A DNA stretch of 64,000 nucleotides. Origin: Chryseobacterium gotjawalense. Its GTDB lineage: Bacteria; Bacteroidota; Bacteroidia; Flavobacteriales; Weeksellaceae. The position numbers and the translations under genes are program-made. The notes under the pieces are model-generated. The model had not been told where the DNA came from and made no database searches. It saw only the letters and a program-made list of their open reading frames with translations. The DNA lies in NCBI RefSeq assembly GCF_030012525.1, contig NZ_CP124855.1, positions 1,302,001 to 1,366,000 of the forward strand, written 5' to 3'. Below are positions 50,655 to 54,314 of the stretch, one piece after another (the stretch's first letter is position 1; each line of letters opens with the position of its first letter).

Positions 50655-50837
50655 TGAGATTTAATTTAATCAAAAATAGTAAAAAAAGGCGAGTGTCTTT
50701 TTAACATTGAGAGATTAAGGAAAATTAAGATTTTCATCGAGTATTATAATTAAATGAATCTAACTGGGGTTTAGCTCTAAAAAAATCCGATTTGGGAAAC
50801 AGTTAGGATTTTAAGTTTTGACCAAAAAAAATCCCGC

Positions 50838-50845
50838 CAAAAAAT
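50838..50845 (+). repeat. Left copy of 8-bp IS target duplication
   Basis: CAAAAAAT, immediately left of the IS1182 element, identical to 52591-52598 on the right. Confidence 0.8.
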
Positions 50846-50876
50846 GAGGTCACTGAAAAAGTGCTTTATAATAAAC

Positions 50877-50912
50877 AAAGGAGGGAAAACAGTTTTGTTT
50901 TCCCTCCTTTTT
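50877..50912 (+). terminator. Strong hairpin at left end of IS1182 element
   Basis: A 14-bp stem AAAGGAGGGAAAAC/GTTTTCCCTCCTTT with 6-nt loop AGTTTT, followed by TT. Position, upstream of the transposase gene, fits a shield that stops outside transcripts from entering the element. Confidence 0.8.
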
Positions 50913-50946
50913 CGTATCTTAAAGGCGTATTTCAAAAGCAGAATAT

Positions 50947-52395
50947 ATGTTGGTACAGCAAGAAAAACTAGCACTGAGTTCCTATTCCGGATTATATGAT
51001 TTAATTGTTCCCAGAGAAAATCTTCTTCGTAAAATTAATGAGCTTATTGATTTTTCTTTTATCTATGATGAGCTTTTGAACAAATATTGTTTAAGCAACG
51101 GTCGTAATGCAGAAAGCCCTGTGCGGATGTTCAAATACCTGCTTTTGAAAAGTATTTATACGGTTTCTGATGTAGATGTGGTGGAGCGTTCCCGGTATGA
51201 TATGTCGTTCAAGTATTTTTTGGGAATGACTCCCGAGGAGAATGTCATTAATCCCAGCTCGCTTACAAAATTCAGAAAACTGCGTTTGAAAGACAGCGAT
51301 CTGTTAAGTTTACTTATAGGCAAAACTGTGAGCATTGCCATTGAAAAAGGGATCATCAAATCCAGATCAATTATTGTAGACGCGACGCATACCCTGTCCA
51401 GAAGTAACCCTTTTTCCACGATAGAAGCATTGCGGGAACGCTCAAAATTACTTCGGAAAACCGTTTATCAGTTTGATGACGAATTTAAAACTCAAATGCC
51501 TTCAAAAAACACCGATAATGATCTAAACAAGGAATTGGATTATTGCAGAGAACTCGAAAAACGTATTGAAAACGACCCCGCTGTCTGTGAGATCCCTGCC
51601 GTAAAGGAGAAACTAAACCTTCTGAAAGAAATGATGGAAGACACCAACGAGCAATTGGTTTTTTCAAAAGACGGTGACGCCAAAACGGGTCATAAATCCG
51701 CTGACAGTTCTTTTTTCGGATACAAAACGCATCTGGCCATGAGCGAAGAGCGCATTATCACGGCAGCCGTTGTAACTTCTGGAGAGAAGGGTGATGGCCC
51801 GGAGCTTCCAAAATTATTGCAGATGAGCCAGGATAACGGGATGGAGGTAGATGCCATTATTGGCGATGCCGCTTACAGCGGAAAAGAAAATCTGAAATTA
51901 GCAAAGGAACAAAACATCAAAGTGGTCGCCCGACTGAATCCCGCCATCACGCAGGGGTTTCGAAAAGATGAAGATCAGTTTGACTATAATAAAGATGCTG
52001 ACCGTTTTGTTTGTCCTGCCGGGCACATGGCAATCCGCAAGGCTAGGCAGGGCAAGAAAAACAAAGGGAAAAATCAGGTTGACACTTATTATTTTGATAT
52101 CGAAAAGTGCAAGGTTTGCCCACTGAACGAAGGCTGCTACAAAGCCGGGGCGAAATCCAAAACCTATTCAGTCTCCATTAAATCAAATTTCCATCAGGAG
52201 CAAATGGCTTTTCAGGAAAGCGATTATTACAAAGAAAGATCCAAACACCGCTATAAAATTGAAGCCAAAAACAGCGAACTTAAAAATGTGCACGGCTATA
52301 ACAGAGCGATTGCCTACGGCATCGAAAACATGCAAATGCAGGGAGCAATGGCTATTTTCGCAGTTAATTTGAAGAGGATACTGAAGTTAATATAG
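50947..52395 (+). CDS. IS1182 family transposase
   Basis: A 482-residue DDE transposase. An N-terminal InsH/DUF772-like helical domain (about 30-110, FKYLLLKSIYTVSDVDVVER) precedes the catalytic RNase H-like domain: first Asp in IIVDATHT (about residue 144), second in IIGDAAYSG (about 305) and Glu in IEAKNSELKN (about 441). A Cys-rich insert (DRFVCPAGHM, CKVCPLNEGC) before the last motif is typical of IS1182. The gene is full length and appears intact, so the element may be active. Confidence 0.95.
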   Translation: MLVQQEKLALSSYSGLYDLIVPRENLLRKINELIDFSFIYDELLNKYCLSNGRNAESPVRMFKYLLLKSIYTVSDVDVVERSRYDMSFKYFLGMTPEENVINPSSLTKFRKLRLKDSDLLSLLIGKTVSIAIEKGIIKSRSIIVDATHTLSRSNPFSTIEALRERSKLLRKTVYQFDDEFKTQMPSKNTDNDLNKELDYCRELEKRIENDPAVCEIPAVKEKLNLLKEMMEDTNEQLVFSKDGDAKTGHKSADSSFFGYKTHLAMSEERIITAAVVTSGEKGDGPELPKLLQMSQDNGMEVDAIIGDAAYSGKENLKLAKEQNIKVVARLNPAITQGFRKDEDQFDYNKDADRFVCPAGHMAIRKARQGKKNKGKNQVDTYYFDIEKCKVCPLNEGCYKAGAKSKTYSVSIKSNFHQEQMAFQESDYYKERSKHRYKIEAKNSELKNVHGYNRAIAYGIENMQMQGAMAIFAVNLKRILKLI

Positions 52396-52496
52396 AGAAG
52401 AACGATATCTGAGCAGTAATTTATCAAAAGTCGTCACAGAGCACACATCCAAGACCATAAAGCCACAAAAATTTTATACACAAAAAAAGAAAAGAA

Positions 52497-52528
52497 CTTA
52501 TTACGAAAGTTTTAAACATCGTAATAAG
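52497..52528 (-). terminator. Hairpin/terminator at right end of IS1182 element
   Basis: A 10-bp perfect stem CTTATTACGA/TCGTAATAAG with a 12-nt loop. On the minus strand it is followed by a T-rich tract (TTCTTTTCTTTTTTT), so it may terminate transcripts that come from the amino acid permease gene. Confidence 0.7.
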
Positions 52529-52590
52529 CTCTCCTTTGTAACCCAAATTAGAAGAATAAACTAAAAATCATAGGGTTTTTCAGTGACCTC

Positions 52591-52598
52591 CAAAAAAT
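52591..52598 (+). repeat. Right copy of 8-bp IS target duplication
   Basis: CAAAAAAT directly after the right inverted repeat, identical to the copy at 50838-50845. Confidence 0.8.
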
Positions 52599-52628
52599 GA
52601 CGGGAAATCTATTGTTATATTTTGATAT

Positions 52629-54314
52629 TTACTTTTTGTATTTAAAGAAATAATATCCATATAAAACAGTGTGTACAATAAGCATTCCTATAGAGAACAT
52701 GATCAGACCACTGTCATCAACTTCTGCATTCTGGTGATGCAGATAAGCCAATACTCCTAAAAGTACGACTAAGAAAAAACCGGAAATAGCAGTTATAGAA
52801 TAATTTTTCGGATCGTCAGTCGTGCTGTTTTGTTTTCCTAAAATAGAGTTTTTAATTCCACGATAGAGATAAACATCCAGACCGATCATCATCCAACACA
52901 CCAAACGGATCCAGGTATCAAACGGTAAGAAAACCATCATTCCCAGACACACCAGTATTCCTAAAACCGGAATCAACGGAACCAGCGGCGTTCTGAACGC
53001 ACGCGGCGCATTGGGTTGTGTTTTTCTTAAAACCAATACTCCTACACAAACTAAAATAAAGGCAAATAAAGTCCCAATACTGGTCATCTCACCCACAACT
53101 CTTCCCGGTACGAAAGCCGCAAACAAACTCACAAAAACCAAGAAGAAAAGATTGGATTTATAAGGAGTTCTGAATTTTGCATGAACTTCGCTGAAAACTT
53201 TTGGCAACAAACCATCTTTACTCATGGAGTAGAATACACGGCTTTGCCCCATCAACATTACCAAAATAACCGATGAATACCCCAACAAAATCGCTAAGAT
53301 AATCGTGGTATTCAACCAGGGATATGCAGGAACCATTGTTCCGTTCACTACACTTCCCATCGCTTCAATTGCAATGGCAACCGGCGCTAAATGATCGCCA
53401 CCACCACCGGCAGTAAATGCTTTATAGTTTACTACCCCTACCATTACGTAAGCAAAAATAATATACAGCACGGTACAGATAATGAGCGATCCCATAATCC
53501 CGATCGGCATCGATTTTTTAGGATCTTTGGTTTCCTGTGCAGCGGTTGAAACTGCATCAAAACCAATATAGGCAAAGAAGACTACGGCAGCCGCCCGTAT
53601 AATTCCAGACCAGCCATATTCACCAAATTTACCAGTATTGGCGGGAATTAGCGGTTGTAGGTTTTCTGGTTTTACATATTTCCACCCCACAACGATAAAG
53701 ATAATAACGATGGAAACTTTAAGAATTACAATTAAAGTATTAACAAATGCGGATTCGCTTGTTCCTTTAATTAAAATCAAGGACATAATGGTTACAATGA
53801 AAACAGCAGGCAGATTGATTAAACCTGTGTGAGCTACACCATCGACTATATAATTGTCAAAGGGCGTCATCATTAAATTATTAGGCAGTGAAACCCCAAA
53901 ACTGGAAAAGAATTTTCCAAGATATCCCGACCAGCTCGAGGCTACAGTGGCTGCTCCTACCGCATATTCGAGGACTAAATCCCAGCCGATAATCCATGCT
54001 ATAAATTCACCCATCGTGGCATACGAGTAGGTATAAGCACTTCCTGCAACAGGGATCATTGAGGCAAATTCTGCATAACACAATCCGGCAAAAGCACAGC
54101 CAATAGCTGCGATAATAAAGGAAATCATGATTCCAGGCCCGGCGTAGTTAGCAGCCGCAAGCCCGGTGATTGAGAATAATCCGGCACCAATAATGGCACC
54201 GATTCCCAAAGCCACCAACGAAGCGGAAGACAATGTTTTTTTCAATCCGTCTGAAGTCTCGTCAGATTCTGACAAAAGCTGGCTCAGAGGTTTGGTTCTC
54301 CAAAGATTTGACAT
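52629..54314 (-). CDS. CAT-type amino acid permease (APC superfamily)
   Basis: A 561-residue inner-membrane transporter of the cationic amino acid transporter branch (APC superfamily), with about 14 helices. The first helix has the substrate-binding break LGIGAIIGAGLFSITG near 37-52, then GLCYAEFASMIPVAGSAYTYSY near 77-98 and FFAYIGFDAVSTAAQETKDP near 240-259. A long C-terminal hydrophobic region is normal for these bacterial members. The original terminator of this gene is split by the IS1182 element. TATTTTTG at 54344-54337 is a likely -7 element. Confidence 0.92.
   Translation of the reverse strand: MSNLWRTKPLSQLLSESDETSDGLKKTLSSASLVALGIGAIIGAGLFSITGLAAANYAGPGIMISFIIAAIGCAFAGLCYAEFASMIPVAGSAYTYSYATMGEFIAWIIGWDLVLEYAVGAATVASSWSGYLGKFFSSFGVSLPNNLMMTPFDNYIVDGVAHTGLINLPAVFIVTIMSLILIKGTSESAFVNTLIVILKVSIVIIFIVVGWKYVKPENLQPLIPANTGKFGEYGWSGIIRAAAVVFFAYIGFDAVSTAAQETKDPKKSMPIGIMGSLIICTVLYIIFAYVMVGVVNYKAFTAGGGGDHLAPVAIAIEAMGSVVNGTMVPAYPWLNTTIILAILLGYSSVILVMLMGQSRVFYSMSKDGLLPKVFSEVHAKFRTPYKSNLFFLVFVSLFAAFVPGRVVGEMTSIGTLFAFILVCVGVLVLRKTQPNAPRAFRTPLVPLIPVLGILVCLGMMVFLPFDTWIRLVCWMMIGLDVYLYRGIKNSILGKQNSTTDDPKNYSITAISGFFLVVLLGVLAYLHHQNAEVDDSGLIMFSIGMLIVHTVLYGYYFFKYKK

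Follow-up and report, generated by a model that had tools for sequence, protein, structure and literature searches.

Terminator hairpins as targets of an IS1182-family element in Chryseobacterium and of its relatives

The element and its target site

The window, that is, the whole stretch of 64,000 nucleotides that was analyzed here, contains an insertion sequence of 1,745 bp (50846..52590, plus strand) that lies just past the 3' end of an amino acid permease gene (ORF at 52629..54314, minus strand). For the permease, the top NCBIfam match is a branched-chain amino acid transporter model, with a score below the cut-off. The element is bounded by perfect 15-bp inverted repeats, GAGGTCACTGAAAAA on the left (50846..50860) and TTTTTCAGTGACCTC on the right (52576..52590), both given on the plus strand; among relatives, GAGGnCACTGAA is kept at both ends. 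Between the repeats there is a single gene (50947..52395, plus strand), encoding a DDE-type transposase of 482 aa with DUF772 and DDE_Tnp_1 domains (Pfam PF05598, PF01609, and PF13751). This protein scores 371.5 bits against the NCBIfam model NF033551, “IS1182 family transposase”, for which the cut-off is 270, and its relatives bear the same annotation; the layout, with a lone DDE transposase gene bounded by inverted repeats, also fits the IS1182 family, whose members measure about 1.6–1.8 kb. The same assignment had been made in the original prediction. A PDB search with the transposase sequence returned no usable match.

The genome holds three full copies of the element: the second is identical to that in the window and the third is 96% identical. 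The domain match and the presence of two identical copies suggest that the element has transposed recently.

The element is flanked by an 8-bp target duplication, CAAAAAAT, with its left copy at 50838..50845 and its right copy at 52591..52598 (plus strand). Outside these copies are the two halves of a putative terminator of the permease gene, read on the minus strand: the 5' arm at 52599..52606 (plus-strand sequence GACGGGAA) and the 3' arm with its T-run at 50824..50837 (minus-strand sequence GCGGGATTTTTTTT). When the flanks are rejoined and one copy of the duplication is removed, the minus strand reads TCCCGTCA-TTTTT-TGGCGGGA-TTTTTTTT. The original prediction of an 8-bp stem, a 5-nt loop and eight T residues at the 3' end of the permease gene is reproduced by this sequence, with the detail that a G.U pair is among the eight. 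The duplication had been placed over the loop, and there it lies: CAAAAAAT spans the loop and the innermost bases of the stem, offset by half a base from the exact center. The hairpin begins ∼20 nt beyond the permease stop codon and, with its GC-rich stem, its T-run and its position past a gene, has the features expected of an intrinsic terminator.

Could such a hairpin have been met by chance? Its 34-nt core has a folding energy of −13.9 kcal/mol, a 48-nt stretch one of −17.4 kcal/mol, and equal stability is found at just 0.55% of 6,000 random positions in this genome; this figure, together with the other copies described below, rules out a chance hairpin. In addition, the empty site is available in a congener (genome G017), which has an uninterrupted AAAAAAAATCCCGCCAAAAAATGACGGGAAAT with a single CAAAAAAT and without the element. 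Its flanks are 91% identical to those in the window, and the hairpin, intact as had been anticipated for a close relative, is letter for letter the same as the joined flanks. Other, more distant congeners have the same stem with differing loops.

Sister-species empty sites were found for two of the three copies of this genome. The target of the second copy, L001, is ATCCCGCTCT-GAATTTCA-GAGCGGGAT; it is unoccupied in the same congener, where the loop differs by one base, and its stem shows compensatory changes among congeners, e.g., CGCTCT/AGAGCG to CGCACT/AGTGCG. The third copy, L003 (G000:C1:2650329-2652067), is this genome's exception to the hairpin rule: its 8-bp duplication is clean and perfect, the arms are unpaired and form no convincing hairpin, and the flanks carry an A-run on one side and a T-run on the other.

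Target sites of related elements

The target sites of related elements were surveyed in one genome per species, by whole-genome searches, and in plasmids and viral contigs, the last of which gave few extra sites. The survey comprises 124 distinct sites at which relatives from Bacteroidota and Bacillota have inserted. The ends of each element were set by means of the terminal repeat, and in the first set the agreement of the duplication helped to choose among candidate ends; hairpins were never used for this purpose. A hairpin was called strong when the rebuilt empty site had a minimum free energy (MFE) of −12 or lower, and background positions were drawn from a 400 kb sample of the genome.

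A duplication is present at 104 of the 124 sites (8 bp in 72, 9 bp in 31, and 7 bp in one). Among these 104, a strong hairpin with the duplication on its loop was rebuilt at 89, 88 are flanked, at 8 bp from the duplication, by an A-tract on one side and a T-tract on the other, and 97 have a strong hairpin or the tracts; with related copies, many of them from the same genomes, these sites are not fully independent and the sampling is uneven. In an earlier subset of 60 sites, the mean MFE was −16.9, versus −7.0 for random positions within the same flanks. Poor folding is seen at ∼14% of the duplicated sites, and 7 of the 104 have neither a strong hairpin nor the tracts. The preference for terminator loops that had been proposed from the window alone therefore holds for the majority of the sites but not for a minority with poor hairpins, L003 included. 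The designation of the target as a terminator loop is likewise correct as far as it goes but too broad, as most sites also have the two tracts, at a set spacing on either side.

With regard to the gene context, a stop codon precedes 66 of 81 sites by no more than 250 bp, the median distance being 36 nt, and both orientations of insertion are seen (25 versus 17). An independent large survey found IS1182 elements over-represented between convergent genes (PMC9208149). One orthologous terminator is occupied in two Chryseobacterium species (insertions L027 and L029, with flanks that are 93–94% identical); because the duplications are shifted by one base, this hairpin was probably struck twice, independently.

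Single cases extend the comparison to more distant elements. Relatives in Enterococcus (L283–L285), at 56% identity, have the same loop-centered duplication of 8–9 bp. Two further distant loci, L280 and L281, yielded ambiguous ends only. In Priestia, two distant IS1182 elements (L123 and L282, 28% identity) have duplicated 5 bp, CCTTG, located in a GC hairpin's loop; next to these elements are genes of group II introns or reverse transcriptases. The Flavobacterium NK2020 genome has about 30 copies, full or partial, among them a tandem pair: copy L037 directly adjoins the left end of its neighbor, and an 8-bp duplication marks the junction. Two other insertions (L156 and L161) are at the CCCGAAGGG / CCCGCAGGG apex of an apparent repeated palindromic element that is without a T-run.

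What of the copies without a duplication? These number 20 of the 124, and their own arms pair just slightly better than swapped arms. A separate mode of insertion was considered for them and rejected, given that mismatched half-terminators are better accounted for by recombination between copies; the 20 may thus be recombinants.

Target geometry and its possible readings

When the duplicated sites are aligned on the edges of the duplication, A occupies positions −9 to −12 in 86–93% of cases, and T occupies positions +9 to +12 in 85–96%. These positions are alike for 8- and 9-bp duplications, and the tracts are mostly present at the sites with weak hairpins too. Between the tracts, the arms of a site pair with each other at 6.45 of 8 positions, compared with 4.23 of 8 when right arms are swapped among sites, and the real value was reached in none of 5,000 permutations. 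The stem usually pairs the first bases outside the duplication with each other, whether 8 or 9 bp are duplicated.

How, then, are the cuts placed? The length of the duplication (8 or 9 bp) tracks the position of the hairpin axis, which either separates two bases or passes through one (41:18 versus 7:16, Fisher p = 0.0023, for one among several geometry measures tried). As a predictor of the length, the spacing from tract to tract goes in the right direction but is not significant (p = 0.12–0.15). Since the length follows the parity of the hairpin, the cleavage appears to be positioned from each arm and not by a fixed ruler.

The reading that we hold to be highly probable is that the transposase of the window element selects terminator hairpins, cuts astride the loop, and that the element brings its own terminator hairpins along. 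It draws on the target geometry, the empty site, the duplicated loop and the conservation of hairpins inside the element, all of them established by comparison of sequences. The preferred target would be a bidirectional terminator with the order A-tract/stem/loop/stem/T-tract, and its hairpin would be read as a DNA structure, either extruded or single-stranded. The strand cuts would flank the loop with a stagger of 8 or 9 nt, and the element would enter there; as a consequence of staggered cuts on either side, the loop would be duplicated and one arm of the stem left on each side.

Three other explanations have to be weighed against this one. In the first, which is unlikely but the most probable of the three, the transposase would read a dyad signal in duplex DNA (A-tract, 8 bp, 8–9 bp, 8 bp, T-tract), which terminators merely happen to carry, and no hairpin would be formed. 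The nearly fixed distance of the tracts from the duplication, weak-hairpin sites included, speaks in its favor, as does their spacing, which is tighter at the targets (sd 2.3) than at the ordinary bidirectional terminators of the genome (sd 6.2). However, the tract motif occurs at 1.6% of background positions, and a strong hairpin is found at only 5–6% of these, versus 42 of 50 tract-bearing targets in the first set, so that target choice involves the hairpin as well as the tracts. Moreover, the pairing of the arms is specific to each site; hairpins without the pair of tracts are also targets, as at the window site and at L164 (CCCAGG-GTTGAAACC-CTGGG); and distant relatives use the loops of GC hairpins.

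In the second, targeting would be coupled to transcription, and a paused or terminating RNA polymerase, or an RNA/DNA hybrid, would be recognized at terminators in place of a DNA structure. The location of most sites directly past a stop codon and the presence of a T-run are what this proposal would lead one to expect, but the polymerase pauses at the T-run and not at the loop, while the duplication is centered on the hairpin, both orientations are found, and hairpins without a T-run, such as L164, are hit too. We regard it as improbable. The third, near-random insertion with survival only in harmless places after genes, can be given almost no credence: it would explain why the sites cluster downstream of genes, but it is already contradicted, as the selective survival of harmless insertions can explain neither why the duplication sits on the loop nor why its length follows parity.

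Terminator-like hairpins inside the element, a second element, and known systems

If the element splits a terminator, the latter would be disabled, and the hairpins found inside the element become of interest. One terminator-like hairpin lies upstream of the transposase gene (50877..50912, plus strand; −22 to −23 kcal/mol) and is nearly symmetric, so that it could be used from both sides. Another, at the right end (52484..52533, minus strand; −19.8 kcal/mol), faces transcription entering from the permease gene. Scored one element at a time, the left-end hairpin is present in 71 of 72 distinct elements, versus 4.7% of random 130-bp stretches, and 59 of the 72 have an inward-facing hairpin at the right end, versus 8–11% of random stretches. 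Between two of this genome's own copies, the left internal stem shows a compensatory difference (GGAGGG/CCCTCC versus GGAGCG/CGCTCC). These hairpins would likely both block read-in toward the transposase gene and stand in for the split terminator. With hairpins that may end transcription in vivo supplied within about 70–110 bp of each end, transcripts that enter from neighboring genes should be terminated all the same, with the transposase gene shielded from read-in, and it may be on account of these internal hairpins that the insertions are tolerated.

The same genome contains a second IS1182-family element, found through the family model (452 bits) in four copies (L286–L289, at G000:C1:1412711, 1781250, 2524207, and 3051603). 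Its transposase is 18% identical to that of the window element. Both elements belong to one family and have terminator hairpins as targets; they differ in that the second replaces the hairpin and shows no evident target duplication. The outermost ends of this element are themselves terminator hairpins. At three of the four sites, a sister species has a hairpin exactly at the position of the element (AAGTCTTCCTAATAAGAAGACTT, AATCCCGAAAAAAATTCGGGATT, and AAAGCCACTTAATTGTGGCTTTTTT); at the fourth, the alignment is looser, with a strong hairpin within the gap. Judged from these alignments, the second element is one that replaces its target hairpins, in a mode like that of IS1272.

Hairpin targeting in the IS1182 family is previously known and has been described mainly for IS1272. 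In staphylococci, IS1272 and TnSha1 target hairpins, often confirmed terminators, without a fixed primary sequence; the hairpin is deleted partly or wholly and no target duplication is left, and a loop duplication was drawn in Figure 13c of the 2017 paper as a hypothetical pathway, not as an observation (PMC4923244, PMC5678879). The window element has a transposase of the same family and, judging from 89 of the 104 duplicated sites of its relatives, also takes a hairpin as its target, but it keeps both arms and duplicates 8–9 bp on the loop, so that the hairpin loss typical of IS1272 does not occur. According to Siguier et al. 2015, as quoted in the same two papers, some IS1182 members target palindromic sequences; in the account of the quoting papers that work holds no detailed data, and geometry, terminators and duplication length are apparently not covered in it. 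IS1397 and ISPpu9, which insert into REP palindromes (PMC1525189, PMC8450116), likewise prefer palindromic intergenic DNA, but they use particular repeated sequences, whereas elements of the window type accept almost any terminator hairpin. In the searchable literature outside ISfinder, the loop-centered geometry, the tracts, the built-in terminators and the two modes side by side appear to be new.

Intrinsic terminators are also the insertion sites of group IIC introns. These differ from the window element in that they move by RNA-based retrotransposition, without a transposase and without a loop-centered duplication.

A broader proposal is tentative, and we would give it somewhat less than even weight: IS1182 transposases may recognize extruded or single-stranded hairpins in general, with the position of the cut setting the outcome. 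A cut across the loop would give a loop duplication whose length, 8 or 9 nt, depends on hairpin parity, as for the window element; a cut at the outer feet would delete the hairpin, as for the second element and for IS1272. Each of these lineages would carry replacement terminators, and the pair could then be regarded as terminator parasites that spare termination.

Because IS1272 deletes the hairpin, the evidence of its target is destroyed; in the window type the target persists on both sides of the element, and the positions of the cuts can be read at >100 sites. With both outcomes in a single genome, each with empty sites in a sister species, a direct test of structure-guided transposition is possible. 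Landing after genes and bringing replacement terminators would amount to a self-limiting strategy that does little harm. Because such elements split terminators, they can also skew the annotation of genomes and the prediction of operons in Bacteroidota. One transposase family, it seems, attacks the same DNA structure in two ways.
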